Positions 1-36,642 of a stretch of DNA of 49,579 bases are shown piece by piece (within the stretch, counting starts at the first letter, position 1; the number at the start of each line of letters is the position of its first letter). Under the pieces are notes generated by a model. It ran no database searches and was not told the origin of the DNA. It was given only the letters and a program-made list of their open reading frames with translations. The translations under genes were made by a program, and so were the position numbers. The stretch comes from a virus, in IMG/VR virus record IMGVR_UViG_3300021354_000001, positions 64,067-113,645 of that record. One strand, given 5' to 3'.

Positions 1-3000
1 GAACAATTGTTTAAGGATATAGATACAGGTAAATTTAAAAAAGCTAAACTTTCAGAAAGTGTAAAAGACCTAGAACCATTATATAGTCCTGTTGAAGGAA
101 TCACTCCTAAGCAAACACATGAGTTTGTTCAAGATATGACTCTTAGAGCTAGAAACTTCTTATTCAATGAGAATAAAGAATCTATATATAATCCTGCTAA
201 AATGACAAGCAATGAACTATTTAGACAAATAGAAGCTGCTTATATTATAGAGGGAAAAAGAGAAAGACTAAGTGATAAAGCTTGGGTTGATCTTGTTCAA
301 AAGACTAAAGAGTCTTTAAGAACATCTCTAGGTTTGAAGTTTAATGAAGAGGGTATAGCTGATTTAAATGCTGAAGATGCTAATACTAGAGAATATGATA
401 GAGATCCATTTAGTATGGGTAGAAATGATGCTTCTCCTGCTATTAAGATTGGATTAATGCTTCCTATGGTTTCTAATAAAGCTACATTAGGAAAGCTTCC
501 TGAAAGACAAATGTCTAGTATTGATGGATATAAAATCCTACCATATGTTCAATCATTCTCTACAATCATGGATAAATTATCCAATACAAGTGATGTAGAT
601 TTAATTGTAAAGAAATTAGGAGAACTTGCTAAGAATGATCCTAATTATGTTAGAGTGTTTAAAGATATTGGTGGTGATCCTAATGGTTTTACATTCAGTC
701 AAGATAATTTATCAACTCCAGCTGATTGGAGATACTTTGTTGACTTCTATCAAACCTTTAGTAAAATGAGACCAAATGTGGTAGCTCAATATACTAATGG
801 TAATGAAGTTTATTTGGGGGCAGCTAACTTATATACAGCAGCTAAGGGTGTTCAAAAAGGATGGTTACAGAATATGAGAGACCTTGCTAAACAACCAGGT
901 TCTCTTATCAAGTTTGATTCTGAGACTAAAACATATGGTACTGATCCTGAGGTATTTAAGAATACCCCAATAGGAAATGATATTGCTAAGTTAAACTTCT
1001 TAAACCAATTAGGAGTTAATGTTACACCAGAGATGTTTGCTAAGTTTAGTGATAAAGATCAAGAAGAGGTAGCTATTCAAGCTAGCTTAATACATGAATA
1101 TTTAAAAGAAAAGAAAGATTTAGTAAGTCTTACCGATGGTACATTAGATGTTAAAGGTAGATTTGCAACTATAGCTGAGGTTGTAGTTAAGTCAACTAAT
1201 CCATTACAAGATGGTATATATACAGGTGTAGATGGTAAAACAAGACAAGCTAACTCACAAAATAATGCTCTATCTTTATTTGCAAATAGGTTTAATGAAT
1301 CTAATACATTAACTGAACTTAAACAAAATAGACCAGAACTTAATGATGTATTCTGTACACACTCTCTAACTCTTCAAAAAGGAGGACAATTCTTTGATAA
1401 AGATGGTGTTAAAATTCCAGGAAAAGAATTACAAGTGGGATTAATCAGTGGTGATTTAGATGAAGTGAAAGATAAAGGTAGAGGAGTTACTAAACTTTCT
1501 CTTGGTAAAAGACTTGCTGCAGAAATTAATCAAAATGTAAATGGTTCATTTTATGTTCTTAATCCAGGAGATAGTGCTTCTGAATGGCAAAAGAATTTAG
1601 GTATCAATGTTCCATTTAAAGATGTACAAGGAGGTATTGAAAGCGATATTCATAATATTTTTAAAGGTTATTTATTAGATGATGTTGCTCTAGCATTAGA
1701 TTATAAAAATAGACAAAAACTTGCTAACGTTGGTAAGAAAGCTAAAGAACTAAGATTCTTTAAGGATGTTCTTTCTGATAAAGAAGGTAATGCTAATGAT
1801 CAATTAGAAGCAATAAATAATATGATTATTGCAAATAAAAGCTATGATGAAATTAGTAAATATATTACAGATAATATTTCTAAGATTAACACTAGTATTA
1901 TTAAATACTTAGATAATTCTGCAAATATACTTAAAAATGCTTTAATAAAGAATGACCAAATCAAATTAGCTCCAACTAAAAAAGAAGGATCTGATGAAGT
2001 TTTTTATACATTTAAAGGATTAACAAATAAGTTTGCTGAAGAGGCTGGTATTAATAAACTTATGTTAAGTGAACAAGATGTTAATGATTTAGTTAAATTT
2101 ATTGATACAAATAAAACTATAGCAAATATTGAATTTCATAAAATATTATTTGGTGATCCTTATCAATTTAAAGTGAAAGTTGAGAATGGTAAAACTATTT
2201 TTGACCAAACTAAGCGTGTGAAATCTTTTGATTCTCCTGCTGCAACAACATTCAATAGTGATGCATTTAACAACTGGCATAATATAGAATATAATAAAAC
2301 TGGATTATTTGGTCAAGAAGGTAGAATTATAATAGAGAAAGGTACTCCAGGATATGATGAGTTCAAAGATTATATGAGCACTGTTACTACTAATGATGTA
2401 GATGTTATTGGTAGAGTGATGGGTAAATCTACAGAGAATGATGCTTCTTCTATATTGATTGATAGAGCATATAGACAAGTTAAACTTAGAAATGCTGATT
2501 GGGGTCCTGATGCTGAAGCTAACTTCCAATGGAATATGGCTTATACAAGAAGAGCTCTTAATATAAGAAAAGATGTTGAGTGGACCTATGGAGATAATGA
2601 TGCTTTAAAAGCTCATGATGAAGCATTGCTTGCTACACCAGAACCTAAATTTATTAGAGAGGTATTAAAACCTATTGTTAGAGGTAATAAGTATGGTAGT
2701 GATAGAATTGATCTTATATTAGATAAAGATTCTCAAATGCCTTTATATTATAAAGATGTAGAGAAAGATAACACTGTATTAGCAGATTTATATATTAAGA
2801 TGTTACAAGAAGGTAATAAAGATTATATTATTGCTAAGAGTGGTAGAAAGTTAGGTATTGAAGGAATTCATGAATTATATGTTGATGGTAAATTTAACAC
2901 TGCACCATTTGCTGATGACACTATTGTAAATGTTCCTTGGAGTATATATGGTATTCAAGTGGAAAATAATTATGATGCTAAAGGAGGAAAAGTTACCTCT

Positions 3001-6000
3001 TCTGTACAGGTTCCTAAAATTATTAACTTAGACTTATTTGCTAATGGTAAACCAGTTACAACAGATGTAAAAAGAGCAGCAATTATTCAAGCTGAATATG
3101 ATCGTGGTGTAAGAATTAAAAATGCTCTTAATCAAAATGGATATGAGAACTTATTAAATAAACTTGGAATAGATGAAAATTTTAATGTAATTAATAGACA
3201 AGCATTAGCTGATTCTTTAAATCATGAAATTCTTAGAACTGCTGTTTCAGAGAATGTAAAAGATGCTATTACATTAGATGATAATGGTAACTTCATTATT
3301 CCATTTGAAGCTACATTCTCATATAAGAAGATTAAGGACATCATCTATTCAATGTTAGATAAGTCTATCAACCATGCTAAAACAAGTGGTGATGCATATG
3401 TACAGGCTCCTGTAACTATGTGGGAAGATGCTAGTAAGGGTAGAAGAGTAGTAGAAATAAATGGTAAGAAAGTATTAACAGATGACACTCTTCATTTCCC
3501 TACCAAAGAAGATCCATATATGGAAGTGATGCTTCCTCATTGGTTTGGTGAAAAGATAAAAAATAATAAGAGATTTGATACTGATGAGAAAGTTCTTAAC
3601 TATTTAAACACTACAACAGAAGGAAAAGAGATTCTTAGTGGTATAGCTTTCCGTATTCCTTGTACAGGAATGAACTCTATAGATTCTATAAGAGTTGCAA
3701 AGTTCTTACCACAAGCTATGGGTAAAACTGTAGTGGTACCTTCTGAAATTACAGTTAAAGCAGGTTCTGATTTTGACGTAGATAAACTTACTACTTATTT
3801 AAAGAATGTATACATTGATAAAAATAATGATTTAAAACTTGTTAGATATCAAGGATCTGAAGAAGCTACAAGAGCTTTCTTTGCTAAAAATTGGGATGAT
3901 ATTATAGAGGTTAAGAAGTTTAAAAAAGCTGAATTATTAGAAGCTGCTCAAATCCTATCTTATGATCTTGAAGATCCAAAAGGATTAGTAGAAAAATATG
4001 CTAATATATTAGATCAATTTAATCCTGAAACTTTAAGTCAGCTTGAAAATGATATAATGACTTCACTTGAAAAATTAGGTGATATTGATGCACAAGCTAA
4101 ATTAAAAGCAGATTATATCAATGACCATTATAGAGCTGCATTAGAAAATGAATACTATGATCATTTAGAAAAAATGATTAATCTTCCAGAAGTTTATGAG
4201 CAAAGAATGACTCCTGTAGATGATGCTGGATTAGCTAAGTTTGCTGATGAAATAAATGATCTTGAAAATAATAAAGATGAAGATATTAAGAATAGAATGA
4301 TTAATGGTACCTATCTTACAGAACAAAGACATGCTTTTGCTATGGCTAAAGCTTGGATAGGTATTGTTGCTTCAAACATTGCTGCTCATTCTGTTGCTCA
4401 AAAAGGTAATATAATTTTAGATCCTACTAGATTTGATAATATTGATCCTGCAGATCTTAAATATCTTGGAGATGGTAAGATTAATATTCCTCATAATAAA
4501 ATAGAAATTAATGGTGTAACATATGCAACTCTTTCTGGAGTTACAACAGCTGATGGTTCAACTAATATATCTACAAGATTAAGTGGACATGGATCTGCTG
4601 TAGTAGATGTAGTTAAAGATCCATTTATTCTTAAGATTATTAATAGTAATCTTGCTCCTACAATTGCAATGTTCTTAGAAAGAATGGGTACTGGTGAAAC
4701 AGGACTTTTATTAATGAAACAACCAATTGTTAAAGATTTTTTAACTAGATTAGATAATCGTGGTGCTTCTTCATTATTTAATCAATTTGATATTGATGAT
4801 GCTTTTAGTAGATTTATAACCACTGAAAGTGCAATAATATCTGCAGATACATTGAATATTGATAAACTTGAAGAGAATATTAGAAAATATAATAGAGAAG
4901 GACTCACTTCTAAAGAAAATGCTGAACAGCATTTAATATTAAATGAGTTCTTGAAATATGCTAAGATGTCTGAATATATGTCTGACATTAACCAAGCTCT
5001 TACATATGACACAGCTAAATTTGGTAATGGAGAAGCTTTAAGCAAGAAGCAATATAGAACAGAAAGAGCATTAAGTAACAATATATTTGGTGGTGTTCAA
5101 GAGTTATTAGACAATACATTCTTAGGAGAACAATCTAAATTTCTTGATAAAGGTATAAATGCTATTGGTGAAATATTAAAACTTGAAGGTAGAGACTTTA
5201 GAAACATTACTAACCAAGTGTTAGATCCATACATGAAGAATAAGTATTTAGGAGCTAATGACTTTAATACTATTGGAAACAAGATTAAAATGTCTTTCTT
5301 AGACTACATCATTCAAATTAAAAGTGATATTAGTGATAGTATTAAACCTCTTATTGCTGACACACAAACATCAATTGCTTCTCAATTAGCTAAAGCTAAA
5401 GAAGAATATCCTGATATGGAGATATTAAAAGTGCTAGAATCTACACCTGCTATTAGAGAAGGTGGTCCAAGGTCTGTTACATTAAAAATTAATTTAAGAA
5501 ATGATGCAGCTACAGAGGATATCTTCACTGGATATATGAGAGAACTTAGAGATAATGTCGGAACTAATGAATTATATAATAATTTAGTAAAGGTGGCTAT
5601 TCTTCAAGGTATGTACAAGTCTCCAATATCTATTAGTAACATCATCCCTGTAGAAGATTTTAGTAAGTCTATTACACCTATTGTTACTGGTTTACATGTT
5701 GATAAAGAATTAGAAAACTTTACTAAAGGTTGGTTCCAAAGAAACAATTTTAAAGATAAAAGTGTATTTACTAGAATAGAGCCCAAATTTAAAGTGGGTT
5801 CATGGAGTGGTCCTTCTTGGGACCCTAATAGTATTCCTACAATTTATTATTCTATACAACATTTTCCTACAATAGAAACATATAACATTGCTTCTACAGA
5901 TAGAAAAATTCTTAAACTTAATGAGAAGTATAATTACCAGGGAACTAAATCTGACTATGTTCAATTTGCTAGAGGATTAGAAGTAACTAGAGGAGGTAAA

Positions 6001-7872
6001 CCTACAGGAGAAATAATTGATGTTCAAACAGGTAAGCCTATCAGTAAGAACCAATTAAGACTTATGAAAGAGAAAGGAGACACTTCTTTTAAAGACTTAT
6101 ATAACTATCAAAGAGTTACAAATGCAGATGGTTCACCATTCTATGTATATGAGGATGGAGATAAGATACATGTATATAAGCTAATTAATGTATATGGTGA
6201 CGGTAACTTAGTACATGAATACTATGACAGTTTCAAACCTTCTCCATTTAATACTGGTACAATACAAGTGAAAGAAGAACTTACAGATGAGCAAGTGAGA
6301 AATGCTTTATCATTTAAAGCTGATCCAGGTGCTGTTTCTATAGAATTAGCTATAAAAGATGTTAATAAACAAATTGTAATACAAGAAAAACCTATTGAAA
6401 CTCAACCAGTTAAAGAAAAGCCAATTGAGAAAGCTCAACCTACAAGAACTATTCTTGAGGCTAGACAAAATCCTATTGATTACACACCAGGACAAATTAA
6501 AGCTTTGAATCAAGTGGGAGCTTTAATTGATAAGAATGAGCAAGGGTATTATTTATTAGCTGGATATGCTGGTACAGGTAAGACAACTATTGCTGAAAAT
6601 ATAGCTAACTATGCTCAAGAAAATGGTAGACAAGTACATATATTAGCTCCTACAAATAAAGCTGCTAAGGTGTTAAATGACAAACTTAAAGCTACAGGAG
6701 TTAGAACAGATGCACAAACTATTCATAAAGCAATTTATGGAGAGCCTGATTCTAATACAGGAGAATGGATACCTAAGACTAACTTAAAGAATAGTGTTAT
6801 ACTAGTAGATGAGTCTTCTATGATATCTAAGGATGTGATGGCAGATCTTATTACTAATAGTAAAAACAATAATATTATTGTATTTATGGGTGATAGCTTT
6901 CAATTAGAACCTGTAGGAGATGATTCTAAATTATTTACAGGAGGAGTTCCTCAAGTGATAAACTCACAATCTCAACTTACTGAAGTAAAAAGACAATCTT
7001 TAGATAGTAATATATTAAAAGTGGCTACATTAGTTAGAACTGATAATAAAGGATATATTCCTGAACAATCTATGGATGATTTTAAAGTTAGTAAATCTAG
7101 AGGTGAGTTCATAAAAGAGTTTAGAGAAGCTATTAAGAATAATGAAAATGCTGTAGCTATTGTTGCAACAAACAATGAAAGACTTATAATGAATGATGCT
7201 GCTAGAATGGAGAAATTTGGACCAGATAGAAAAATATTAAATGATGGAGAAACATTAATTGCTGTAGCTAACTCTTCTGATATCCCTAACTCAGAGATAT
7301 TTAAAGCAGTTGAGATGAGAGGTGAACCTGAAAAACATGTATTAACATTTGACTTTAATGGTAAAGAATCTACATACAATATGTATTTAGTACATATTGT
7401 TGGAGAAGATGGTAAAGAGAGAAAGGTGATGCATTTTCCTGCATTAGATAAACCTAGTTTATATCACTCTCAAATATTAACAGCTATTCGTAATTCTAAT
7501 CCACAATTATTTAGTAATCTAGATAATGATAGTGATATTATTCATACCAAAAAAGGAGCTAAACTTTCTCCAGCAATTGTAATCTCTACATATGGATATG
7601 CTGTAACAGCTCATAAATCTCAAGGTTCTCAATGGGATAAGGTGTTTGTAAACCAAAACTATAATGCTCCAGGTTGGAATCCTGCTAGATGGTATTACAC
7701 AGCTATTACAAGAAGTGCTAAAGACTTAGTTGTTCTACCTTCAGCTAGTAATATTAGAATCAAAAATGCTGATATAGAAAGCAAGATAAATTCTATTGTT
7801 CCTGAAGAAAATGATATAACTTTGCAAATAGAAAATGAGACAGGTTTAAATACTAAAGACTTTAAATGTTAA
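1..7872 (+). CDS. Giant RNA-polymerase-like protein fused to SF1B helicase (5' partial)
   Basis: The reading frame is open at the window edge, so the true N terminus is missing; residues are counted from base 1. At residues 1257-1261 there is DFDVD in the context GSDFDVDKL, preceded by FRIPCTG and a VVVP strand. This matches the double-psi-barrel active-site loop of multisubunit and crAss-like RNA polymerases (RxPx...DFDxD), whose aspartates bind Mg2+. An earlier segment (SSVQVPKIINLDLF, about nt 3000-3045) could be the other barrel. The last ~450 residues form an SF1B RecD/Dda-type helicase: Walker A GYAGTGKT at 2188-2195, VDESS near 2270, GDSFQLEP near 2298, TAHKSQG near 2537 and YTAITRS near 2567. 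In crAss-like phages such giants are packaged and injected to transcribe early genes; that role is inferred here. The next gene follows after 3 nt, so the two are probably co-transcribed. The helicase call is firm and the RNAP call is good but rests on motifs alone. Confidence 0.85.
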   Translation, partial: EQLFKDIDTGKFKKAKLSESVKDLEPLYSPVEGITPKQTHEFVQDMTLRARNFLFNENKESIYNPAKMTSNELFRQIEAAYIIEGKRERLSDKAWVDLVQKTKESLRTSLGLKFNEEGIADLNAEDANTREYDRDPFSMGRNDASPAIKIGLMLPMVSNKATLGKLPERQMSSIDGYKILPYVQSFSTIMDKLSNTSDVDLIVKKLGELAKNDPNYVRVFKDIGGDPNGFTFSQDNLSTPADWRYFVDFYQTFSKMRPNVVAQYTNGNEVYLGAANLYTAAKGVQKGWLQNMRDLAKQPGSLIKFDSETKTYGTDPEVFKNTPIGNDIAKLNFLNQLGVNVTPEMFAKFSDKDQEEVAIQASLIHEYLKEKKDLVSLTDGTLDVKGRFATIAEVVVKSTNPLQDGIYTGVDGKTRQANSQNNALSLFANRFNESNTLTELKQNRPELNDVFCTHSLTLQKGGQFFDKDGVKIPGKELQVGLISGDLDEVKDKGRGVTKLSLGKRLAAEINQNVNGSFYVLNPGDSASEWQKNLGINVPFKDVQGGIESDIHNIFKGYLLDDVALALDYKNRQKLANVGKKAKELRFFKDVLSDKEGNANDQLEAINNMIIANKSYDEISKYITDNISKINTSIIKYLDNSANILKNALIKNDQIKLAPTKKEGSDEVFYTFKGLTNKFAEEAGINKLMLSEQDVNDLVKFIDTNKTIANIEFHKILFGDPYQFKVKVENGKTIFDQTKRVKSFDSPAATTFNSDAFNNWHNIEYNKTGLFGQEGRIIIEKGTPGYDEFKDYMSTVTTNDVDVIGRVMGKSTENDASSILIDRAYRQVKLRNADWGPDAEANFQWNMAYTRRALNIRKDVEWTYGDNDALKAHDEALLATPEPKFIREVLKPIVRGNKYGSDRIDLILDKDSQMPLYYKDVEKDNTVLADLYIKMLQEGNKDYIIAKSGRKLGIEGIHELYVDGKFNTAPFADDTIVNVPWSIYGIQVENNYDAKGGKVTSSVQVPKIINLDLFANGKPVTTDVKRAAIIQAEYDRGVRIKNALNQNGYENLLNKLGIDENFNVINRQALADSLNHEILRTAVSENVKDAITLDDNGNFIIPFEATFSYKKIKDIIYSMLDKSINHAKTSGDAYVQAPVTMWEDASKGRRVVEINGKKVLTDDTLHFPTKEDPYMEVMLPHWFGEKIKNNKRFDTDEKVLNYLNTTTEGKEILSGIAFRIPCTGMNSIDSIRVAKFLPQAMGKTVVVPSEITVKAGSDFDVDKLTTYLKNVYIDKNNDLKLVRYQGSEEATRAFFAKNWDDIIEVKKFKKAELLEAAQILSYDLEDPKGLVEKYANILDQFNPETLSQLENDIMTSLEKLGDIDAQAKLKADYINDHYRAALENEYYDHLEKMINLPEVYEQRMTPVDDAGLAKFADEINDLENNKDEDIKNRMINGTYLTEQRHAFAMAKAWIGIVASNIAAHSVAQKGNIILDPTRFDNIDPADLKYLGDGKINIPHNKIEINGVTYATLSGVTTADGSTNISTRLSGHGSAVVDVVKDPFILKIINSNLAPTIAMFLERMGTGETGLLLMKQPIVKDFLTRLDNRGASSLFNQFDIDDAFSRFITTESAIISADTLNIDKLEENIRKYNREGLTSKENAEQHLILNEFLKYAKMSEYMSDINQALTYDTAKFGNGEALSKKQYRTERALSNNIFGGVQELLDNTFLGEQSKFLDKGINAIGEILKLEGRDFRNITNQVLDPYMKNKYLGANDFNTIGNKIKMSFLDYIIQIKSDISDSIKPLIADTQTSIASQLAKAKEEYPDMEILKVLESTPAIREGGPRSVTLKINLRNDAATEDIFTGYMRELRDNVGTNELYNNLVKVAILQGMYKSPISISNIIPVEDFSKSITPIVTGLHVDKELENFTKGWFQRNNFKDKSVFTRIEPKFKVGSWSGPSWDPNSIPTIYYSIQHFPTIETYNIASTDRKILKLNEKYNYQGTKSDYVQFARGLEVTRGGKPTGEIIDVQTGKPISKNQLRLMKEKGDTSFKDLYNYQRVTNADGSPFYVYEDGDKIHVYKLINVYGDGNLVHEYYDSFKPSPFNTGTIQVKEELTDEQVRNALSFKADPGAVSIELAIKDVNKQIVIQEKPIETQPVKEKPIEKAQPTRTILEARQNPIDYTPGQIKALNQVGALIDKNEQGYYLLAGYAGTGKTTIAENIANYAQENGRQVHILAPTNKAAKVLNDKLKATGVRTDAQTIHKAIYGEPDSNTGEWIPKTNLKNSVILVDESSMISKDVMADLITNSKNNNIIVFMGDSFQLEPVGDDSKLFTGGVPQVINSQSQLTEVKRQSLDSNILKVATLVRTDNKGYIPEQSMDDFKVSKSRGEFIKEFREAIKNNENAVAIVATNNERLIMNDAARMEKFGPDRKILNDGETLIAVANSSDIPNSEIFKAVEMRGEPEKHVLTFDFNGKESTYNMYLVHIVGEDGKERKVMHFPALDKPSLYHSQILTAIRNSNPQLFSNLDNDSDIIHTKKGAKLSPAIVISTYGYAVTAHKSQGSQWDKVFVNQNYNAPGWNPARWYYTAITRSAKDLVVLPSASNIRIKNADIESKINSIVPEENDITLQIENETGLNTKDFKC

Positions 7873-7875
7873 TCA

Positions 7876-10800
7876 ATGATAGGTTGTCAAGACGGTATAC
7901 AAAATGCTATTAGAAAATATGTAGAGGATAAATCTTATTTAAGATTTGATGGAAAAGACTTTATAGAAGTTCTTACATCATATAAAGCAAGAGTAAATCC
8001 TTCTAATTATTATAGAGTGGCAGAATCTGTAGCTAAAAAACTAAACAAAGATATTAATACAGATCTTGTATTAGGTAAGATATTTTATCCAAAACAATAT
8101 TCAGATGGTGTAGGAGTTATAGCAGCTCCTACAAAAGAACAATTAGCATTATTAAATGCTGCTGGAGAAGCTGAATATAAACAAGCTTTAGATAGTCTTG
8201 ATGAAGTTATGCCTAAAAAGGATAGACTTGATTTAGAAAATAATACAAGCTTTGGTGTAAATAGTGAAGGAGATAGTATGTTACAAAAACCAGGAACTGA
8301 AAGTTCTTTAGCTTCTCCAGAAACAGTTAATTTAGTTAAAGACCTACTTACTAGATTAGGTGTTGATATTAAAGAAGTTGAAAAGATTTATAACAATGGT
8401 GTAAAACAAAATGCTAATGGTATAGCTAGACTAACACAAAGATTAGTAGAAGTGATTCAAGGAGCTGAGGCTAAATCTCTTGGTGAAGAAGGTATGCACT
8501 TTGTTGTAGCTATCATTAAACAAACTAATCCTCAGCTTTATAAACAACTATTAAAAGAAATTAATAGTTATGATATGCTTAATAGGGTGTATGAGAATTA
8601 TGGAACAGATCCTAACTATCAACTTAATGGTAAACCAGATGTATTAAAACTTAAAGAAGAAGCTATTGCTAAAGTTTTAATTGAACATATTATTGATAAA
8701 AATGAAGGATCTACAGAAAAACCTGAGAACTTAGCTAAAACAGAAACATGGTGGCAAAAAATTATTAATTTCATTAAAGGCTTATTTGCTAAAAATGGAT
8801 TTGATAAAGCTGCTATGGATATTATTACTGGAAAAGATATAGGTACAGCTGCTGATATTAGAGAAGAGGCAGGAAGAACATTTGAACAAAAGAAAACAGG
8901 AGATTCACAAACAGATACATTTGATCTTATAAAAGAGGAGGAAAGTAAAATGACTCCTCCAGATAATACTAAAAAAACTCCTTATACATATAATGGAAAA
9001 GATGTAGGTCTTAGAACAAGTGATGTCATAAAAGAATATTATAATGATGTATTTAGAGGTAGAAAAGGTGGAACAGATGAAGAATTTGCAGAAGCTATCA
9101 ACTCTATATATGCAGAAACAGGAACCACTTGGCATGCTGTTCAAGATAGTTTAGTAAAAAATGTATTCACTGATAAAGATGGTTATGTTAGAGAAATAGA
9201 AGGAGATGATAGTGATTATATATCCAACTTAGATGAAATAGATAGAGGGATATATACTATGTTAAAAGACAATATGCGAGATAGAATTAAATCACTTAAT
9301 GAGGATAGAAAGACTAGATTCTTAAGTGAGGTGATGATCATCAATCCTAAATATGGAAGAGCAGGTCTTGCAAGCACTGTAGACTTTATGGCAATTAAAA
9401 GTAATGGTAATATTATTCTTCTTGACTGGAAGTTTATGAAATTAAACACTGATAAATATCAAGATGTTCAATGGTATAAAATTGGTGCTTGGAATGAGCA
9501 AATGGATCTTATTAAGAATACACTTGTAAAAGCATACGGAATTAATCCAAATAGATTTGAACAAGCTATGATGATTCCTATTAGAGCTAATTATAGTAGT
9601 GTTAATAAAGCTAAAAATATTCTTCCTAGACTTTTAAGTATAGAAATAGGAGATGTTAATATTAAAAACATTGCTCTAGATTATTTAATACCTGTAGGCA
9701 TTGAATCTCAATCTACTGGTAAAGATCGTATAGATAGATTATTAAAATCATTAAATGCTGATTATAAGGCAATGGCTAATCAACCTGCAATAGGTTTTAC
9801 TGCTAAGTCTGAGAAGGCTGAGCAAATGAATGCTGCTTTTTCTGCTATAAGAAAATTACAAATGCAGCAAGATATTAAACCATTATTAAAGCAGGCTGAT
9901 ATATTAATGTATTATATCAAGAAAACAATAAATAATTATAAAACTAATTGGGAAGGAACAGATCCATTTATATATAGTGATGAAGTTATGAGTTCATTTT
10001 CTGATGAATTAAGAAATCATCAAGCTTCTTTAAATCCTTATTTAACATTAAATACAGCATTAGCAGAATTATTTGAAAATGATCTTGATAAAGATCAAAA
10101 AGAACTTAAAACAAGACTTAGAGATACAGTGTTTGAGGCAGCTGATCTAATGGAAAGTCTTAAAGAAACTCAAATAAAGTTTGGTGAAAACTTCTTAGCT
10201 GCAAGAGAAGGATTTGATGAATTAGCAAAAGCTGATAAAATAGTTAGAGGAATGGCATGGTTATTTAACTCAATCCCATTAATTCAAACTAGAGGAATAC
10301 AAGTATTTTTTGCTAAAGAAAATAGAACCTTAGCATTAGCTGCTCAAGAAATTTTTAATCAAGCAGAACAATTAAAAAGTATTAGTAAGGAATATCTTCC
10401 AATGGCTACTTCTAAAGGACTTACAAGAAAGAATATTCTTGATCCAATTAAGAAAAAAGATAAACATGAACTTATTGATGAATATAACCCTGAATTCTAT
10501 GAGCAATTAAAAACTAAAATAGAAGAAGGTGATATTAAATGGATTAGAGACAATGTAGATATTGATGCTACAAAAGCTTTATTGCAAGAAAGACTTGATA
10601 AAGAACTTGAAAGTGTTACTAATAGAGGTAATGCAGAAGGTCTATCTGAAGATGAACTTAATAGAAAATTAGATGCTAAACGTAGAGAATGGGATAGTTC
10701 TGAAAAAGGAGCTGGTTGGTTACAATATTATCAAGTTAAACAAAATCCTATAAGAGATAAGTGGGAGTCTCCAGAGTTTAAAAAATTAAATAGTCCTGGA

Positions 10801-12903
10801 TATGAACCAGCTAAAAGATTATATGATTACATAATAGAAAGAAATAAATATAATGCATCTATAGGGTATTTAAGTAAACAAGATGCTGCTAGAACATTTC
10901 TACCATGGATACCTATGGGTATTGTTGAAACTTTAGCTGCTGGTGGAGATTTAAAGATGGCAGAAAACTTATTACAGCATATATCTATAGATAGTGATGA
11001 AGCAGGGTTCAGTAATTATGATCCACGTTCTGGAAAAGAAATTAATAGAATCCCTATATATTTTACTAAAGAAGTTAAAGGAAAAGCTGCAAGTGAAGAC
11101 ATATTTAAAATAATGGCATTATATAATGCTGCAGCAATTAGATTTAAATTCATGCAGGATATTGAAGGACAAGCATTATTACTTTCAGATATAGAAGAGA
11201 ATAAAGATTCTATTAATACATCATGGTTTGGTAGATCAAGAATAAAAAATGGCAAGTTAGATATCATTGAAGGAGATAACACTAGTAACTCTGATTTATT
11301 AAAAGCCATGATTAAGATAGTATTATATAATCAAAGATATTTAGGCACTGCTAACTTTGATGCTTTATTAGGAAAGATCGGTGACTGGGGCCAAAATGTT
11401 AATAAAGCTTTAGGAATTAATATATTTCCAGAAGGGCAAATTAGTCTTAATCAAACTGTACATGCTTTAAATAATTATTTTAGACTTAAAACATTAGGTA
11501 TTAGTATTTTATCACCTATGTCTAACCTATTAGGAGGTACATTCCAATCTATGATTAACTCTGAGAAATATTTTACTAGAGCAGATCATATGAAATATCA
11601 AATAATAACTGCTGGTAAATTATTTGGAATTAGTTTTGAAAATAGAGAAAAGATACTTAAAGCACTAGATTATTTTCTTCCTTATTCAGAAAACTATACA
11701 GCAGAATATGCTAGAGAGCTTTCTTTAAATAAATTAGATGGAGATAAAATAAACCATTTTATGATGGGGCTTATGTCTAAATCTGAAAAAAGTGTTCAGT
11801 TTACAAATTTTTTAAGTTTTATTAATAATACAATAATTAAAGATAGTGTAGTTTTTAATACTAGAGAGTATGTAAGAACACTTCCTGAGTTTAAAAATAT
11901 GTTTATTGGTTCTCAATCAGAACAATTAAATAGAAGAGAAGCTTTTGATAATGAAGTGGATAGACTTAATAAAGAATTTGGTATATTAAAACTTGGAGAA
12001 ATAATCAACAATCAATTTGTTATTCCTGGTATAGAAAGATCTTCTGATAATATTATTAAGTTAAGAACACAAATACAGCAAATTAATACAGATGCATTAG
12101 GTACTATGACAGAGTCTCAAAAAAGAATGCTAAATGCTATGATTTTAACAGATTCTGCAGCGATGTTTAAAGGATGGATTCCACGAATGGTTGATGTAAG
12201 ATTTGGTGATCTTAAATATAACTCAGCATCTCAAGCTTGGGAGTTTGGTAGAATGAGAACATTTGCTAATGAAGTTACTAAAAGAAATTTTTATACATTA
12301 GGTAACTTAAAAGGATTACTATCAGGAACTGTTACAGAAGAAGGATTTAAAAGAATGAAAGAAGATTATGAAAAGAAGAAAGAAGACTATGAAAAACAAA
12401 CAGGAAGAAAGTTTAATATGACTGAAGATGAATTCATGAACTTATATCACAGAAACTTAAGAGGATCTATATTTGATGTATTAGCTAGTCTTACGTTTCT
12501 TGGAATCTTCTTAGGACTTAAAGCTAATGAGCCAGATAAAAATCAGGATGCACAAATTAGAAATAGCTATAAGTTTATGTTAAAAGCAGCTGATAAGTTT
12601 AGAGATGAGCTTACATATTTCTATGATCCATCCAGTATTAGTGGGTTAATTAGTACAGGGATATTTCCTACATTTAAATTAGTTACAGATTTTGAAAAGC
12701 TATTAGCTAATTTTATGAAATATAATTGGGGATTAATTCATGGAAAAAGTTCAGAAGATATGAAAGATATACATTTTATTAAATATTTTATGAATGAGAT
12801 TCCAGGAGTTAACCAAATGCAACCATATTTAACAATGGCTGTTCCTGATGTAGCTAAAGTGATGGGTATTCAACCACAATCTCAGTCTGGATTTAATAGG
12901 TAA
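7876..12903 (+). CDS. Giant probable virion protein with RecB-like PD-(D/E)XK nuclease domain
   Basis: 1675 residues. The start ATG lies 3 nt after the preceding stop. A RecB/Cas4-type nuclease core is visible: GTTWHAVQD at residues 416-424 (the G..H motif), an Asp at 503 (STVDFM), DWK at 517-519 (D-x-K), then a Q..Y-like helix (QWYKIGAW). The N-terminal ~300 residues contain EEGMHFVV and a later EEAIAKVLIEH, faintly like a degenerate zincin, but I do not claim a protease. The C-terminal half has no domain I recognise. It holds one strongly hydrophobic stretch (DVLASLTFLGIFLGL) and the segment GWIPRMVDVRFGDLKY. Its size and place beside the RNAP-helicase giant suggest a second packaged or injected protein. 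Helicase and nuclease on adjacent proteins could act together on DNA ends. The nuclease call is fairly sure and the virion location is inferred. Confidence 0.7.
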   Translation: MIGCQDGIQNAIRKYVEDKSYLRFDGKDFIEVLTSYKARVNPSNYYRVAESVAKKLNKDINTDLVLGKIFYPKQYSDGVGVIAAPTKEQLALLNAAGEAEYKQALDSLDEVMPKKDRLDLENNTSFGVNSEGDSMLQKPGTESSLASPETVNLVKDLLTRLGVDIKEVEKIYNNGVKQNANGIARLTQRLVEVIQGAEAKSLGEEGMHFVVAIIKQTNPQLYKQLLKEINSYDMLNRVYENYGTDPNYQLNGKPDVLKLKEEAIAKVLIEHIIDKNEGSTEKPENLAKTETWWQKIINFIKGLFAKNGFDKAAMDIITGKDIGTAADIREEAGRTFEQKKTGDSQTDTFDLIKEEESKMTPPDNTKKTPYTYNGKDVGLRTSDVIKEYYNDVFRGRKGGTDEEFAEAINSIYAETGTTWHAVQDSLVKNVFTDKDGYVREIEGDDSDYISNLDEIDRGIYTMLKDNMRDRIKSLNEDRKTRFLSEVMIINPKYGRAGLASTVDFMAIKSNGNIILLDWKFMKLNTDKYQDVQWYKIGAWNEQMDLIKNTLVKAYGINPNRFEQAMMIPIRANYSSVNKAKNILPRLLSIEIGDVNIKNIALDYLIPVGIESQSTGKDRIDRLLKSLNADYKAMANQPAIGFTAKSEKAEQMNAAFSAIRKLQMQQDIKPLLKQADILMYYIKKTINNYKTNWEGTDPFIYSDEVMSSFSDELRNHQASLNPYLTLNTALAELFENDLDKDQKELKTRLRDTVFEAADLMESLKETQIKFGENFLAAREGFDELAKADKIVRGMAWLFNSIPLIQTRGIQVFFAKENRTLALAAQEIFNQAEQLKSISKEYLPMATSKGLTRKNILDPIKKKDKHELIDEYNPEFYEQLKTKIEEGDIKWIRDNVDIDATKALLQERLDKELESVTNRGNAEGLSEDELNRKLDAKRREWDSSEKGAGWLQYYQVKQNPIRDKWESPEFKKLNSPGYEPAKRLYDYIIERNKYNASIGYLSKQDAARTFLPWIPMGIVETLAAGGDLKMAENLLQHISIDSDEAGFSNYDPRSGKEINRIPIYFTKEVKGKAASEDIFKIMALYNAAAIRFKFMQDIEGQALLLSDIEENKDSINTSWFGRSRIKNGKLDIIEGDNTSNSDLLKAMIKIVLYNQRYLGTANFDALLGKIGDWGQNVNKALGINIFPEGQISLNQTVHALNNYFRLKTLGISILSPMSNLLGGTFQSMINSEKYFTRADHMKYQIITAGKLFGISFENREKILKALDYFLPYSENYTAEYARELSLNKLDGDKINHFMMGLMSKSEKSVQFTNFLSFINNTIIKDSVVFNTREYVRTLPEFKNMFIGSQSEQLNRREAFDNEVDRLNKEFGILKLGEIINNQFVIPGIERSSDNIIKLRTQIQQINTDALGTMTESQKRMLNAMILTDSAAMFKGWIPRMVDVRFGDLKYNSASQAWEFGRMRTFANEVTKRNFYTLGNLKGLLSGTVTEEGFKRMKEDYEKKKEDYEKQTGRKFNMTEDEFMNLYHRNLRGSIFDVLASLTFLGIFLGLKANEPDKNQDAQIRNSYKFMLKAADKFRDELTYFYDPSSISGLISTGIFPTFKLVTDFEKLLANFMKYNWGLIHGKSSEDMKDIHFIKYFMNEIPGVNQMQPYLTMAVPDVAKVMGIQPQSQSGFNR

Positions 12904-13074: not shown

Positions 13075-16000
13075 ATGGAAATTAATTGCTCCGTTGAACC
13101 ATGTCCAGTGATACTAAATGCTACCTGCGTATTTTATGAAGGTGCTAACTTAGTATATACAGGTATCAATACAAATGATAGTGTCCAAACTGCTCTACAA
13201 AAAATAGATGCTAAGTTTGGTGATGCTGCCATTGGATATATATTTCAAAATGGTATAATACAAACTGGTCCAGGATTACCTGTACAACTAGGTGGAACCT
13301 TGATACAGAACACAGTGATTCTTAGTGGTGGTTATACATTTAAGATTACAGATTCTATTGAGTCTGGTGCATTAATAACAACAGGTGGTACATCTTCTGA
13401 TTTTGTAAAAGGAGATGGTAGTCTTGATCCTGGTCCATATCAACCTTCTGGTAATTATATATCAGCTCTAACAGGAGATGGTACAGCCACAGGTCCTGGT
13501 TCTAGTGTATTCACACTAGCTAGTGTAAATCCTAATCCTGGTACTTATGGAACAGCAACACAAGTTCCTATAGTAACAGTGAATACAAAAGGACTTGTAA
13601 CAAACATCACTCCTGTAACTATAACAGTTCCTTCAGGTATACTTATATTTGTGGGTGATGTAACAGGAATAGGTGTAACAGGTTCTCCTACAACACTAAC
13701 ATTAGCAAATGTTAATAGTAATATATATGGTGGTAATACATTCTTAAAATTCTCAGTGAATGCTAAAGGATTAGTTACATCAGCTACTCCTGTAGGCAGT
13801 TTAGATATTATATCTGCATTAGGATATACTCCTGTTCCAACAACTAGAACATTAACAATTAATGGTGTTACACAAAACTTAGCAGCTAATAGAAGTTGGG
13901 TTATCCCAGCAGGAACTAGTGGTACGTCTGGTACATCTGGTACATCAGGAACTAGTGGTTCTTCTGGAACTACAGGAACTAGTGGAAGCAGTGGTACAAG
14001 TGCAACAAGTGGAACTAGTGGCTCTAGTGGTTCTAGCGGTACTAGTGGTACAGATGGTACAAGTGGTACAACAGGTAGCTCAGGTACTTCAGGTTCATCA
14101 GGAACTAGTGGAACTACTGGTTCATCTGGAACTAGTGGAACTACTGGCACATCAGGAACTACAGGTACAAGTGGAAGCTCTGGTACATCAGGTTCTTCAG
14201 GAACTTCTGGTACTACAGGTACATCAGGAACATCTGGTACTAGTGGAAGCTCAGGTACTACAGGTACTAGTGGTAGTAGTGGAACTTCAGGATCAAGTGG
14301 AACAGCAGGAACAACAGGTACATCAGGTACATCAGGTACTGATGGAACAGGAGGAACCTCTGGTACAACTGGTACTAGTGGCTCTAGTGGAACATCAGGA
14401 TCTAGTGGCACATCAGGATCTAGTGGAACAAGTGGTACTAGTGGTACAAACGGAACTGGTGGTACATCAGGTACAACAGGAACTAGTGGTAGTTCAGGAA
14501 CCACTGGAACTAGTGGTTCTAGTGGTAGTTCAGGTACTAATGGTACAGGAGGTACTAGTGGAACATCTGGCTCTAGTGGAACTAGTGGCACCACTGGTAC
14601 ATCTGGAACAAGTGGTACCAATGGTACAGGTGGTACATCTGGAACAAGCGGAACTAGTGGTAGCTCTGGAACTACAGGTACAAGTGGAACTACAGGTACA
14701 AGTGGATCTAGTGGAACAAGTGCAACTAGTGGAACAAGTGGAACCGATGGTACAGGAGGAACTTCTGGCACATCAGGTACAACAGGCTCTAGTGGTTCTA
14801 GTGGAACAACAGGAACTAGTGGCTCAAGTGGAACTAGTGGAAGCTCAGGTACAAGTGGTACAACAGGAACATCAGGCTCAACAGGAACAAGTGGTAGCTC
14901 TGGAACAAGTGGAACTGATGGAACAGGTGGTACAAGTGGTACTGCTGGTACATCAGGAACAAGTGCTACATCAGGTACTAGTGGTTCAACAGGAACTAGT
15001 GGTAGCAGTGGTACTACAGGAACCTCTGGTTCAAGTGGAACAACAGGCACTAGTGGTACAAGCGGAACAGCAGGTACTTCAGGTATCAATGGTGTATCTG
15101 GAGGTCAAGTATATTGGATTAACCAATCAGTTGCAGCAAGTCCTGCAGTAAATACAGATAGACAATTATCACCAACACCAACAAGTACAACAACTCAAAC
15201 TGTTACTTCAACTATTGCAAGTGGTGCATCTAGTATTATAAATACATATATCACAGATGGCGGTGTACCAGGATTAACAAGTCTTTCAGGAGGTAACTGG
15301 GGATTTACTACTCATTTTACAATACAAAATAGTAATTCATCTTTTGATGTATATGGTAAGGTATATAAATATACAATTGGAGGAGTAAGTACATTATTAG
15401 GAACAACAAACTTAGTTCCAATAGCTTATAGTACACTTGTACAACAATTTTTCTATGATACATTTGTTGCTGGTCAAAGTTTAGCTTCAACAGACAGAAT
15501 ATATATAGAATTATGGGCAACCAATACTTCTAATCAATCTCACACAATAACTTTCTATACAGAGGATGGTTCTTACTATTCTTATGTACAAACAACATTC
15601 ACAGCTCCTTCTGGTACTAGTGGTACTTCTGGTACTTCTGGTGTTGGTGGAACTAGTGGCTCAAGTGGTACATCTGGCTCTACAGGAACTAGCGGTAGTA
15701 GTGGGGTGAGTGGTTCTAGTGGAACAACAGGCACAAGTGGAACAACAGGTACAAGTGGTTCATCAGGATCTAGTGGAACTTCTGCTACCAATGGTACAGG
15801 AGGTACATCAGGTACAAGTGGAACTACAGGTTCTAGTGGATCTTCAGGTACAACAGGAACAAGTGGTAGCTCTGGAACTTCTGCAACAAGTGGAACTAGT
15901 GGTACAACTGGCACATCTGGTTCTAGTGGAACTTCAGCTACATCAGGAACATCTGGTACTAATGGTACAGGTGGAACAAGCGGTACTAGTGGCACAACAG

Positions 16001-18819
16001 GAACATCAGGAACTACTGGAAGTTCTGGTACAAGTGGTATTAATGGAACATCAGGAACTTCTGGTTCTACAGGAACATCAGGTAGTTCAGGAACAAGTGG
16101 TACTTCTGGAATTAATGGTACATCAGGATCTTCAGGCAGTAGTGGAATTAATGGTACATCGGGTTCTTCAGGAACTAGTGGTATAAATGGAACTAATGGC
16201 ACATCAGGTAGCTCTGGTATAAATGGAACTAGTGGTACATCAGGAACATCTGGTACCACTGGTACAAGTGGATCTAGTGGTCTTAGTGGTTCTAGTGGAA
16301 CTTCTGGAACAACAGGTACTAGTGGTTCTTCTGGAACTTCTGGAACATCAGGAACTTCTGGAACAACAGGAACAAGTGGTACAAGTGGAACCAATGGAAC
16401 AGGTGGTACATCAGGAACCACAGGAACATCAGGCTCTAGTGGTACATCAGCTACAAGTGGCACCTCTGGTACAACAGGAACTTCTGGAACTAGCGGAGTT
16501 AATGGAACAAGTGGTAGCACTGGTACATCAGGAACAAGTGGAACTTCTGGTACTAGTGGAACCAATGCTTACTTTAGTGGTACACTTAATTATGTAGCTA
16601 AATTTACAGGTAGTGGAACAACAATAGGTAATAGTTTATTATTTGATAATGGTAGTGGTGTAACAGTGGGGAGTGCAACAGTGGTTAGGGCATTTAATAT
16701 TTATTCTGCCACTGCTGATAACCAATTATTAATAGCTGGACCTGCTCCTTCAGTTTCTTTAGCTGATGCATTAACAGGTGCTACCTACCAAGCAAAATTT
16801 GGTTTAGCCACAGGTGTAAATCAATTTGTAACCAATTCAGTTGCAGGTGATTTTGCTATTTCTTCACAAGGAACAAGTAATATCTTATTTGGTATTAATG
16901 GAGTAGAGGCAATGCGTGTTTTTGGTTCTACCAAGAATGTAAGCATAGGTGGAAATTCTACCGATTTAGGATTTAAATTGTATGTAAATGGTACATCAAA
17001 TATAACAGGTCAATTAAAATTAGGCTCTACAATTACCAATGGTACATATACCTATACCCTTCCTTCTGCAACAGGTACTTTGGCTTTAACTAGTGATATA
17101 CCAAGTGGTGCAATTACAGGAAGTGGAACTACCAACTACCTACCTAAATTTACAGGTGCAAGTACAATAGGGAATAGTTTAGTTTATGATAATGGAGCAA
17201 ATGCCGTTGCGGTTGGAACAAATAGCCCAAATGATTTTGGAGGTTCTTTTAAAATATTAGAAGTAAGAGGAACTAGTGGAGGTTATTTATTAGCATCAAA
17301 TTCAGATAACAGTACTATTGCACAAGTTGGTGTAGGTACAGGTATTGCATATTATGGATTAAGAACAGTTGGTAGTATTGCTTTTACTATTAATAGTTCT
17401 GAAAAAATGCGTCTTGACGCTTCAGGCAATTTAGGATTAGGAGTTACACCGAGTGCGTGGGGAAGTACACAAAAAGCTATTGAAGTTAATGGAGCAACAA
17501 TGTTTGGAGGAGGAGGATACAATGCCTATTATACTTCTAATGCATATTATAATGCAGGTTGGAAATATATAAATGCAGGTTCTTATGCTGCTGCGTTATA
17601 TGCAAGTGAAAATGGTTCTCACAATTGGTCGGTAGCAGCAGCAGGAACGGCAGGTAACGCTATATCCTTTACCCAAGCAATGACCTTGTTTAGTGATGGT
17701 AATTTACTTTTAACAAATAGTACAGTTACTAATGCAGGCTACAAACTAGATGTTAATGGTACAGGAAGGTTTAGTGGGGCATTAACAGGTACAACGGGTA
17801 GTTTTTCTAGTACAATGAATGCCGATTCTTATGGAATGGCAGGTGTTGCACAAGCAATGACTTGGACAACTAATACTTTAAGATTAGGACAAGGAAGTTA
17901 TTGGAATAATATAGAATTATGGGATGGTAGTGCTATTAGATTGAAAGTAGCAAGTGGTGGTAATGTAGGTATAGGAACAAGTAGTCCTAATGACCTTTTA
18001 CATATTAATGGAAGTGGCATTATAAAAATGCAAATACAAGGTAGTACAGAAGCACAATTAAGATTAAATAGTGGCTATGGTCAAATATCAAATGTAAGCG
18101 GAGATTTATATTATACTATTGAATCAGCATCGGGTAGCCAAATATTTAGGACAGGTTCTTCTACCGAAAGAATGCGTATTACAAGTGATGGTAAATTACT
18201 TTTGGGTACTTCAACGGCAGCAACATACTTACTAGATGTTAATGGTACAGGAAGGTTTAGTGGGCAAGTAAGATTTGGAACAGGTTTATATATTGAAACT
18301 AATGGTGATTTTTACCAACCATTTACAGGACAAATACAAATATCAGGAGTAGCAGGAAATACGACATATCCATCTTATGGCTTTTATGGAAATACAGGTA
18401 TAGGTATGTATAGAGAAAGTGCTGATGTTTTAGCATTTGTTACAAGTGGGGTTAAAAGACTTACCATATCATCCACAGGAGCAGCTACATTTAGTAGTAC
18501 AGTTACCGCTACTCAATTTAAGACAGGTGAAATGGTATATAGTGCTAATCAAATATATAGAAATAGTGCTAGTGAAATGTATGTAAACTATTCAGGTACA
18601 GGAGTAACGCATGTAGGAAATCCAACATCAGGACTTAGTTTTTATGGAACCGCAATATTTAGTAGTACAATAAAGACAGAAGCACCTACAACAGCACTAG
18701 CAGGAGCAATGAAATTTGGAGCAAGACAAGCAGGTCTAGCAGTAACACCAGCAGGATATTGGACAGTAAATATTGACGGAACAGATTATTATATTAACTT
18801 ATTTAACACATCACCATAA
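13075..18819 (+). CDS. Giant tail fibre with two collagen-like Gly-X-Y blocks
   Basis: 1914 residues. The N-terminal ~280 residues include a short helical motif (NDSVQTALQKIDAKF) seen in many phage appendage proteins and are probably virion-proximal. Residues 280-675 and 847-1164 are Gly-X-Y repeats made almost only of GTS, GSS and GTT triplets with rare GTD, GTN, GGT and GIN. They are separated by a ~170-residue globular insert. The C-terminal ~750 residues hold fibre-type repeats such as MRVFGS..NVSIGG, LYVNGTS, YTLPSATGTLAL, EKMRLDASGNLGLG and ERMRITSDGKLLLG, ending without an S74 chaperone domain. The protein would be a long trimeric fibre with its receptor-binding tip at the C terminus. 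It has its own promoter. From about nt 16900 the codon and CpG use changes sharply, which suggests an exchanged tip. Confidence 0.88.
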   Translation: MEINCSVEPCPVILNATCVFYEGANLVYTGINTNDSVQTALQKIDAKFGDAAIGYIFQNGIIQTGPGLPVQLGGTLIQNTVILSGGYTFKITDSIESGALITTGGTSSDFVKGDGSLDPGPYQPSGNYISALTGDGTATGPGSSVFTLASVNPNPGTYGTATQVPIVTVNTKGLVTNITPVTITVPSGILIFVGDVTGIGVTGSPTTLTLANVNSNIYGGNTFLKFSVNAKGLVTSATPVGSLDIISALGYTPVPTTRTLTINGVTQNLAANRSWVIPAGTSGTSGTSGTSGTSGSSGTTGTSGSSGTSATSGTSGSSGSSGTSGTDGTSGTTGSSGTSGSSGTSGTTGSSGTSGTTGTSGTTGTSGSSGTSGSSGTSGTTGTSGTSGTSGSSGTTGTSGSSGTSGSSGTAGTTGTSGTSGTDGTGGTSGTTGTSGSSGTSGSSGTSGSSGTSGTSGTNGTGGTSGTTGTSGSSGTTGTSGSSGSSGTNGTGGTSGTSGSSGTSGTTGTSGTSGTNGTGGTSGTSGTSGSSGTTGTSGTTGTSGSSGTSATSGTSGTDGTGGTSGTSGTTGSSGSSGTTGTSGSSGTSGSSGTSGTTGTSGSTGTSGSSGTSGTDGTGGTSGTAGTSGTSATSGTSGSTGTSGSSGTTGTSGSSGTTGTSGTSGTAGTSGINGVSGGQVYWINQSVAASPAVNTDRQLSPTPTSTTTQTVTSTIASGASSIINTYITDGGVPGLTSLSGGNWGFTTHFTIQNSNSSFDVYGKVYKYTIGGVSTLLGTTNLVPIAYSTLVQQFFYDTFVAGQSLASTDRIYIELWATNTSNQSHTITFYTEDGSYYSYVQTTFTAPSGTSGTSGTSGVGGTSGSSGTSGSTGTSGSSGVSGSSGTTGTSGTTGTSGSSGSSGTSATNGTGGTSGTSGTTGSSGSSGTTGTSGSSGTSATSGTSGTTGTSGSSGTSATSGTSGTNGTGGTSGTSGTTGTSGTTGSSGTSGINGTSGTSGSTGTSGSSGTSGTSGINGTSGSSGSSGINGTSGSSGTSGINGTNGTSGSSGINGTSGTSGTSGTTGTSGSSGLSGSSGTSGTTGTSGSSGTSGTSGTSGTTGTSGTSGTNGTGGTSGTTGTSGSSGTSATSGTSGTTGTSGTSGVNGTSGSTGTSGTSGTSGTSGTNAYFSGTLNYVAKFTGSGTTIGNSLLFDNGSGVTVGSATVVRAFNIYSATADNQLLIAGPAPSVSLADALTGATYQAKFGLATGVNQFVTNSVAGDFAISSQGTSNILFGINGVEAMRVFGSTKNVSIGGNSTDLGFKLYVNGTSNITGQLKLGSTITNGTYTYTLPSATGTLALTSDIPSGAITGSGTTNYLPKFTGASTIGNSLVYDNGANAVAVGTNSPNDFGGSFKILEVRGTSGGYLLASNSDNSTIAQVGVGTGIAYYGLRTVGSIAFTINSSEKMRLDASGNLGLGVTPSAWGSTQKAIEVNGATMFGGGGYNAYYTSNAYYNAGWKYINAGSYAAALYASENGSHNWSVAAAGTAGNAISFTQAMTLFSDGNLLLTNSTVTNAGYKLDVNGTGRFSGALTGTTGSFSSTMNADSYGMAGVAQAMTWTTNTLRLGQGSYWNNIELWDGSAIRLKVASGGNVGIGTSSPNDLLHINGSGIIKMQIQGSTEAQLRLNSGYGQISNVSGDLYYTIESASGSQIFRTGSSTERMRITSDGKLLLGTSTAATYLLDVNGTGRFSGQVRFGTGLYIETNGDFYQPFTGQIQISGVAGNTTYPSYGFYGNTGIGMYRESADVLAFVTSGVKRLTISSTGAATFSSTVTATQFKTGEMVYSANQIYRNSASEMYVNYSGTGVTHVGNPTSGLSFYGTAIFSSTIKTEAPTTALAGAMKFGARQAGLAVTPAGYWTVNIDGTDYYINLFNTSP
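13912..15099 (+). repeat. Collagen-like Gly-X-Y repeat block 1
   Basis: 132 consecutive triplets, nearly all GTS, GSS, GTT or GTx. Proline is absent, unlike classical collagen. A few triplets replace Gly by Ala (GTS-ATS). Synonymous codons for Gly, Thr and Ser are mixed, so the DNA is less repetitive than the protein. The bias opens long reading frames in other frames, which I treat as shadows. Confidence 0.95.
15613..16566 (+). repeat. Collagen-like Gly-X-Y repeat block 2
   Basis: 106 triplets of the same Thr/Ser-rich, proline-free kind, with more GIN/GTN units than block 1 (for example around nt 16036-16240). It joins the globular insert to the C-terminal fibre tip. Confidence 0.95.
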
Positions 18820-19270: not shown

Positions 19271-19606
19271 ATGAAAACAGTTAAATTAAAGGTGATTAAA
19301 GAAAACATTGGTGGTAGAGATACAATCTTAACTACATATGATCTACTTAAATCAACAATAAACAACCCAAAAGAGGGTGGTTTTAATGTAGATGAAATGA
19401 TTAAAAGATTAAGACTTCTTGAGAAATTAGATGCTCATAAAGAAACATTCTCAATAAAAGAAGCTGATCTTGAAAACTCTTTAGCTATAACAGCAGAACT
19501 TTCTCTTGAAGATGCTGATTACAATGATTTAAAAGAGCTTTTAAAAGGTATGAAATGGGGAGTTATCTCTCAAGCTATTGTTGATTTAGCTAACGAGTTT
19601 AAATAG
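19271..19606 (+). CDS. Hypothetical protein, 111 aa
   Basis: I do not recognise the family. The protein is acidic and mostly helical in appearance, with a repeated Leu-rich pattern in its second half (MIKRLRLLEKL and YNDLKELLKGM), which could mediate oligomerisation. No signal peptide or membrane segment. It has its own promoter, and its last 21 nt overlap the 3' end of the convergent glycosyltransferase gene. It stops with TAG. Confidence 0.7.
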   Translation: MKTVKLKVIKENIGGRDTILTTYDLLKSTINNPKEGGFNVDEMIKRLRLLEKLDAHKETFSIKEADLENSLAITAELSLEDADYNDLKELLKGMKWGVISQAIVDLANEFK

Positions 19607-22942: not shown

Positions 22943-22951
22943 ATGATTATT

Positions 22952-22984
22952 TTGTACAAATTTAAGAAAGATTAGGTATATTTG
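22952..22984 (+). promoter_or_regulatory. Promoter for the DUF6165-like gene
   Basis: TTG at 22952-22954 and TATATTTG at 22977-22984 (22-nt spacer, slightly long). The ATG at 22997 follows 12 nt later. The -33 part sits in the palindrome TTTGTACAAA (22951-22960), which is shared with the opposing promoter. Confidence 0.6.
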
Positions 22985-22987
22985 CAA
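22957..22987 (-). promoter_or_regulatory. Divergent promoter for the glycosyltransferase gene
   Basis: On the - strand, TAAATTTG (22964-22957) lies 20 nt below TTG (22987-22985). It directs transcription to the ATG at 22942, with a leader of only a few nucleotides. It overlaps the + strand promoter of the DUF6165-like gene. Confidence 0.7.
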
Positions 22988-36377: not shown

Positions 36378-36378
36378 A

Positions 36379-36642
36379 TTAATTGATTGCTCTAAATTTA
36401 ATAATGTCATCACCCTCTAGTGTAATCTCTGATTGATACACCTTACGTTCTCTCTTATATCCCTTCATCTTATTAGTCTTAGGATCAATTTCTGGAACAT
36501 TTTCACTACGCTCATGCATATCATCTAATAGGATTAAAAGACTGTTGTCTTCCATTTCTACAGACCTAATCACTTTGTTTAGATTAAAGCTATCTGTATA
36601 GCTTTTGTCATCTGTCTTTCTTGTGTAAAAGAATTGGCTCAT
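36379..36642 (-). CDS. Hypothetical protein, 87 aa
   Basis: Unrecognised. Starts MSQFFYTRKTDDKSYTDSF and contains LLILLDDMHERSENVPEID and ITLEGDDIIKF. Mixed strands and charged loops, no membrane segment. Overlaps the upstream lipoprotein gene by ATGA and is therefore probably co-translated with it. Confidence 0.65.
   Translation of the reverse strand: MSQFFYTRKTDDKSYTDSFNLNKVIRSVEMEDNSLLILLDDMHERSENVPEIDPKTNKMKGYKRERKVYQSEITLEGDDIIKFRAIN

Follow-up and report, generated by a model that had tools for sequence, protein, structure and literature searches.

The window analysed here, 49,579 nucleotides of viral DNA that make up positions 64067-113645 of a 113,645-base IMG/VR record (IMGVR_UViG_3300021354_000001), opens within a giant gene. 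Its positions 1-7872 (plus strand, as are all features below unless marked otherwise) form a single open frame of 2,623 aa ending in TAA. A sequence-only reading had counted at least 2620 residues and called for recovery of the missing 5′ end, which proves to be an ATG at record position 58766, 5.3 kb upstream of the window. The whole is a fused protein of 4,390 aa with no internal stops, and the window holds aa 1768-4390: the end of a module termed A, an RNA polymerase (RNAP) module termed B, a superfamily 1B (SF1B) helicase and a terminal cysteine, with two internal cysteines (aa 2219 and 2988). Could so long a frame be two genes joined by misassembly, as had been feared? The same arrangement is present as one 4,680-aa frame in a record from a different metagenome (L015; IMGVR 3300025387_000013), 64-67% identical along the whole length, RNAP half and helicase half alike, and since that relative is equally fused, misassembly is ruled out. 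Adjoining the giant frame on its 5′ side (record positions 50945-58766; L001) are proteins of 607, 1,074 and 888 aa, all Cys-free, which read as consecutive cargo or structural proteins.

That an RNA-polymerase-like core surrounds the sequence DFDVD (3769-3783) had been surmised from the letters, and the region is now confirmed as the core of a virion RNA polymerase of crAss-like type, in the phi14:2 gp66 family. The motif, which binds the catalytic metal, aligns with DFDID at aa 1361-1365 of the phi14:2 enzyme (catalytic Asp 1361, 1363 and 1365), GSDFDVDK standing against GSDFDIDK so that the conserved GSDFDxDK context is preserved, and FRIPCTGMNS (3649-3678) is the counterpart of YRIPTQG in other crAss-like RNAPs. 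A profile of six crAss-like cores, from which phi14:2 was left out, found the phi14:2 virion RNAP in the PDB (6VR4) at E=2.5e-74, the next match being at chance level; phmmer with the single window protein does not reach 6VR4. AlphaFold2 on the 860-aa core (2329-4908; 46 sequences) gave pLDDT 86 and pTM 0.83, and with this model Foldseek returned 6vr4_A on top (E=6.3e-24, probability 1.00); nearly all the lower-ranked hits were RNAP chains, cellular or phage, with E values short of significance. The alignment to 6VR4 covers the whole core, compared as one unit rather than barrel by barrel, at a TM-score of 0.63 by query length and an rmsd of 10.4 over 932 columns. The predicted fold of the domains, that of the DFDVD region included, agrees with 6VR4; their relative orientation in the model is different or uncertain. 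By analogy with its homologues the window RNAP would be packaged in the virion and would synthesize RNA.

Past the polymerase, a Pro/Glu-rich linker (approximately 6352-6459, placed by eye from the usual length of B in relatives and the start of the helicase match) leads to an SF1B helicase domain of Dda/RecD2-like type (6418-7800). Motifs I, Ia, II, III, V and VI are present: GYAGTGKT (I) at 6562-6585, VDESSM (II) within 6796-6822, GDSFQLEP (III) within 6880-6912, AHKSQGS (V) within 7597-7650 and TAITRS (VI) within 7693-7725. In the window fragment, residues 2154-2578 hit the Dda-like helicases of PHROG 325 at E=2.4e-68, Pfam AAA_30 (5e-27) and UvrD_C_2 are both above cut-off, and the PDB matches are RecD2 and Dda, all of which supports membership of the SF1B Dda/RecD2 group. 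As AlphaFold2 had only five sequences to work from and its model is of low confidence (pLDDT 46), this assignment rests on sequence. The claim that a full set of RecD/Dda motifs shares one frame with the polymerase stands, the motifs being intact.

By TerL, portal and major capsid protein (MCP), which match PHROG head families, and by the crAss-like gene order TerL-portal-MCP-tail-cargo, with the first three upstream of the giant frame, the window phage belongs to the order Crassvirales. Its closest named TerL (pairwise identities rather than a tree) is that of cyanophage Lbo-JY46 at 38.8%, then that of Cellulophaga phi4:1, then those of crAss genomes at about 27%. Elsewhere in the window are a 1,914-aa tail-fibre-like protein (13075-18819) with long collagen-like Gly-x-y (GTSGTSG) repeats and cysteines only at residues 5, 10 and 18, the L015 counterpart having a similar N-terminus (MNVTCSAKTC); a 1,133-aa minus-strand frame amid plus-strand genes (19586-22987); and, all on the minus strand, a family 2 glycosyltransferase (35634-36413), a RecA/UvsX-like recombinase (39135-40172), a ribonucleotide reductase (40912-42924) and an RIIB-like protein (46134-47636).

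The giant frame is one part of a set of three modules, A (phi14:2 g067, crAss001 Gp47), B (g066, Gp50) and C (g065, Gp49). Module C of the window (7876-12903; 1,675 aa), a homologue of the RNAP-associated virion proteins crAss001 Gp49 and phi14:2 g065, starts three bases past the stop of the giant frame. In profile comparisons window A matches the Gp47 family at 8e-67 and g067 at 4e-14, and window C matches Gp49 at 5e-28 and g065 at 1e-7. Homologues of all three modules have been detected by MS/MS among the virion proteins of phi14:2, per its annotation, and of crAss001 (PMC10172136).

The modules come in several gene layouts, and it is in the boundaries between them that the main finding lies. 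Where two neighbouring modules are unfused, whether A and B or B and C, one cysteine lies close to the C-terminus of the leading protein and another close to the N-terminus of the one that follows; where they are fused both are missing, and the modules are otherwise Cys-poor. With all three separate, as in phi14:2 and cr111_1, there is cysteine at the end of A, the start and end of B and the start of C: in phi14:2 the last residues of A are ..NTIC, B runs from MACK to ..QECK, and C opens with MSCK, with no further cysteine in its A or B. With A-B fused and C separate (window, cr118_1, cr50_1, cr52_1, cr53_1, cr130_1) only the end of B and the start of C have them, which in the window are Cys4390, the last residue of the fused protein (codon 7867-7869), and Cys4, the sole cysteine of C (7885-7887). 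With A separate and B-C fused (p-crAss, Rudgehvirus, crAss002, cr110_1; in the p-crAss group A and C were assigned from position and annotation only) they are at the end of A and the start of B and not at the end of the fusion, though in crAss002 gp33 (L104:13100) and cr110_1 gp40 (L107:13070) the cysteine sits at an internal Met that makes a better start; their annotated starts are likely too far upstream, the likely start being the internal Met followed by Ser-Cys. Finally, in four environmental loci (L162, L166, L170, L187) A-B-C occupy one frame with no cysteine at either end; such apparent single frames, here with L168 added, are of about 5,000-5,600 aa and lack terminal cysteines. The giant frames of cr52_1, cr130_1 and cr53_1 (L014, L105, L106) contain 37-74 in-frame TAG and no TGA, a use of TAG resembling that of recoded crAss-like phages, and keep the terminal Cys.

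How general is the rule? In a first set, cysteine lies within the final six residues of all 74 complete RNAP frames (74/74), other cysteines being at 0.0002, and the gene after the RNAP frame starts M-x(0-4)-C. Over the 168 distinct loci used for statistics, upstream boundaries had both cysteines in 21 cases, neither in 16 and were discordant in one; downstream boundaries had both in 123, neither in one and were discordant in six, of which four have a cysteine 9-10 residues from the end and one has it at residue 9. The C-terminal cysteine is missing from 17/17 C-fused frames. Internal cysteines are rare, at a density of 0.0008 for B frames and 0.0007 for C frames; the remaining long ORFs at these loci have 0.0108. 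To allow for kinship among the phages, lineages of unlike fusion state were set against each other, which gave about 20 independent changes in all: of 11 A-B changes, with A-fusion scored from frame length, 9-10 were concordant, and of 10 B-C changes nine were, with none opposite and a median p of 0.004 for each boundary. Apparent exceptions are few: in L184 and L202 a start slightly downstream gives M..C, L131 looks truncated, and L155 and L211 have their cysteine some 20-25 residues from the end. In human-gut relatives there are several internal cysteines, so that there the terminal one is not always unique. Leptolyngbya phage Lbo-JY46, inspected after the rule was formed, obeys it: a 1,552-aa protein whose one cysteine is its last residue is followed by a 2,748-aa protein whose one cysteine is residue 4. 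Neither giant protein (PP438436; L236:14355-27261) has DFDxD, and the second has two HExxH motifs. Since the 2,748-aa protein lacks DFDxD, the rule may, judging from this sequence, extend beyond RNAP carriers. The Cellulophaga phi4:1 region surveyed contains no giant proteins and does not bear on the rule. We found no mention of terminal cysteines in the open literature.

What might such cysteines be for? We think it likely that the 4,390-aa protein is virion-packaged cargo, composed of A, the RNAP and an accessory helicase, and is one length of an A-B-C chain whose adjacent modules would be joined by a peptide bond where fused and, where encoded by separate genes, by a disulfide between their terminal cysteines. 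Such cargo would be packed in the particle, threaded part-unfolded through the tail and refolded in the host, where B, to extrapolate from phi14:2 and crAss001, would transcribe early genes. With somewhat less assurance, though still leaning in favour, we propose that the three modules reach the host as a single linear thread: disulfides linking the C-terminus of A to the N-terminus of B, and the C-terminus of B to the N-terminus of C, would fix the order, the scarcity of other cysteines would avoid cross-links while the chain is unfolded, and the reducing host cytoplasm would then separate the parts. In the portions of the crAss001 structural atlas drawn on here (PMC10172136), giant cargo is proposed to unfold in part so as to clear a tail of under 50 angstrom, the sequence in which cargo proteins leave the virion and how they are linked are stated to be an open question, and the cryo-EM disulfides reported are those of the tail barrel and hubs, with none between cargo proteins. 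A mature virion can evidently be oxidised, as that particle has tail disulfides; counting against disulfide staples, virions assemble in a reducing cytoplasm, so the oxidation would need to come late.

An alternative view takes the giant chain for a polyprotein that a zincin-like region of A or a host protease would cleave once it is injected, with RNAP and helicase then acting separately. Module A does have a HELFH motif of zincin-like character, p-crAss gp45 and its relatives are annotated as fused to a zincin protease, and zincins are thought to process the polyvalent proteins of phages (PMC5512222). Searches of A against Pfam and PHROG gave no peptidase match, though, no cleavage site was found, and phi14:2 encodes A, B and C as full-length separate genes, which together leave us doubtful. 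Rather improbable, in our estimation, is that the terminal cysteines bind not each other but a metal or a third partner such as portal, scaffold or chaperone. Shared metal sites can draw on single cysteines, and a disulfide between cargo proteins is deduced from sequence; but the cysteines are paired, with both or neither at a given boundary, both vanish upon fusion, and the outer ends of the set lack them (the N-terminus of A has none and the C-terminus of C has one in 1/116), a pattern for which an anchor to a third partner has no need.

Fusion of a helicase to an RNAP of this type is not new, having lain unremarked in GenBank: gp14 of cr118_1 (4,946 aa, 'exonuclease V') and gp59 of cr50_1 (4,774 aa, 'DNA helicase') each combine a PHROG 325 helicase with an RNAP core. 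No description of such a fusion was found in the literature, though Yutin et al. 2021 reported large multidomain transcription proteins, some with a PDDEXK domain. Among 80 viral-contig relatives only L016 (same contig as L015), L041, L042 and L058 have one, a count that is maybe too low since the survey profile, made from three helicase sequences, missed the cr50_1 helicase that PHROG 325 finds. On the RNAP tree the helicase label changes about four times, at least three of these being forced by well-supported branches, and 20 relatives lacking the fusion, when their whole records were searched, had no strong hit to PHROG 325. Towards their C-terminus, other RNAPs have NADAR, DUF7831, cpYpsA/SLOG, 2OG-Fe(II) (AlkB-like), histidine phosphatase or RNase H domains, in some relatives nothing at all, and in cr126_1 a NADAR lies close to the N-terminus of B. 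NADAR, DUF7831, AlkB-like 2OG-Fe(II) and cpYpsA/SLOG domains were noted in the linkers of virion RNAPs in the tails of L041, L042, L038, L058, L028, L017 and L025 and at aa 62-189 of L100; possibly they are delivered counter-defence enzymes. The RNAP linkers are places that accept accessory domains.

The sequence-only reading had gone on to suggest that the fusion could draw DNA in or clear the template as it transcribes, and while its crAss-like virion RNAP fused to an SF1B helicase has held up, that dedicated role has not fared as well. In its favour are that SF1B helicases move on DNA, that the window motif set is intact, and that the helicase is covalently tied to the polymerase, an arrangement kept in L015. 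A motor pulling the genome in, or working ahead of its fused polymerase, is nevertheless hard to reconcile with sporadic occurrence among the surveyed loci, with the lack of any strong PHROG 325 hit across the records of the relatives searched and with non-motor domains in the same slot, and we regard it as decidedly improbable. The helicase may still be coupled to transcription in some way. Since the fusion is sporadic, no replacement helicase is found in the relatives searched and unrelated domains take the same slot, the most economical reading is of the helicase as an accessory passenger that is delivered, rather than an essential DNA-pulling motor; it is probably not essential. Inserted in a linker like other such effectors, it would be co-delivered to act on incoming or early-transcribed DNA, perhaps by unwinding it, by removing bound proteins or hybrids, or by countering defence. 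As for the cysteines, an origin in a signal at the nucleic-acid level, RNA or DNA (translational coupling, or a start overlapping a stop), to which Cys codons a few bases from gene ends and genes often 2-20 bases apart might seem to point, is scarcely credible and is rejected by the inverted gene A of crAss001 and cr106_1, which runs antiparallel to B and lies far from its start but still ends ..RCNS and ..ECLE where B starts MSKRC and MSKIC, and by wide variation of the intergenic sequence beside a cysteine conserved at the protein level.

Set among known systems, the proposed A-B-C chain has its nearest model in phi14:2, whose virion RNAP gp66 (6VR4) with g065 and g067 shares the homologous core and fold, DFDxD, A-B-C order and terminal cysteines; there the genes are three and lack a helicase, whereas the window has A fused to B plus the SF1B helicase. 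Like the window, cr118_1 gp14 and cr50_1 gp59 have an A-B fusion, a Dda-like helicase past the RNAP core, a terminal Cys and a separate C that starts with Cys, though cr118_1 is distant (about 23-25% identity) and, with several label changes on the tree, their helicases were gained independently or often lost. The polyvalent proteins of Iyer et al. 2017 (PMC5512222) are likewise giant delivered multidomain proteins with unrelated enzymes and zincin-like domains, of whose features the window frame has the HELFH motif and lacks a peptidase profile match; their RNAP examples are N4-like, of single-subunit type, while the window polymerase would be of double-psi-barrel type. Giant virion RNAPs fused to other functions and codelivered with DNA are also known from P23-45, with an unrelated delivery part (tape measure), and from N4, with an unrelated polymerase family, both without helicase. 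For phi-crAss001 Gp45-Gp50, the parts of PMC10172136 relied on here place homologues of A and C in the capsid and propose partial unfolding through the tail; they propose no linkage between cargo proteins, and channel proteins of the Gp45/46 type are outside the Cys chain.

If true, joining by terminal cysteines would be a new way of coupling protein ejection and would explain how fused and unfused gene layouts coexist. The rule furnishes a concrete and cheaply testable prediction for cultured phages (phi14:2, crAss001, DAC15), a redox-sensitive A-B-C adduct. The linkers, for their part, are the places to search for accessory enzymes that are delivered, the window helicase being a likely example.
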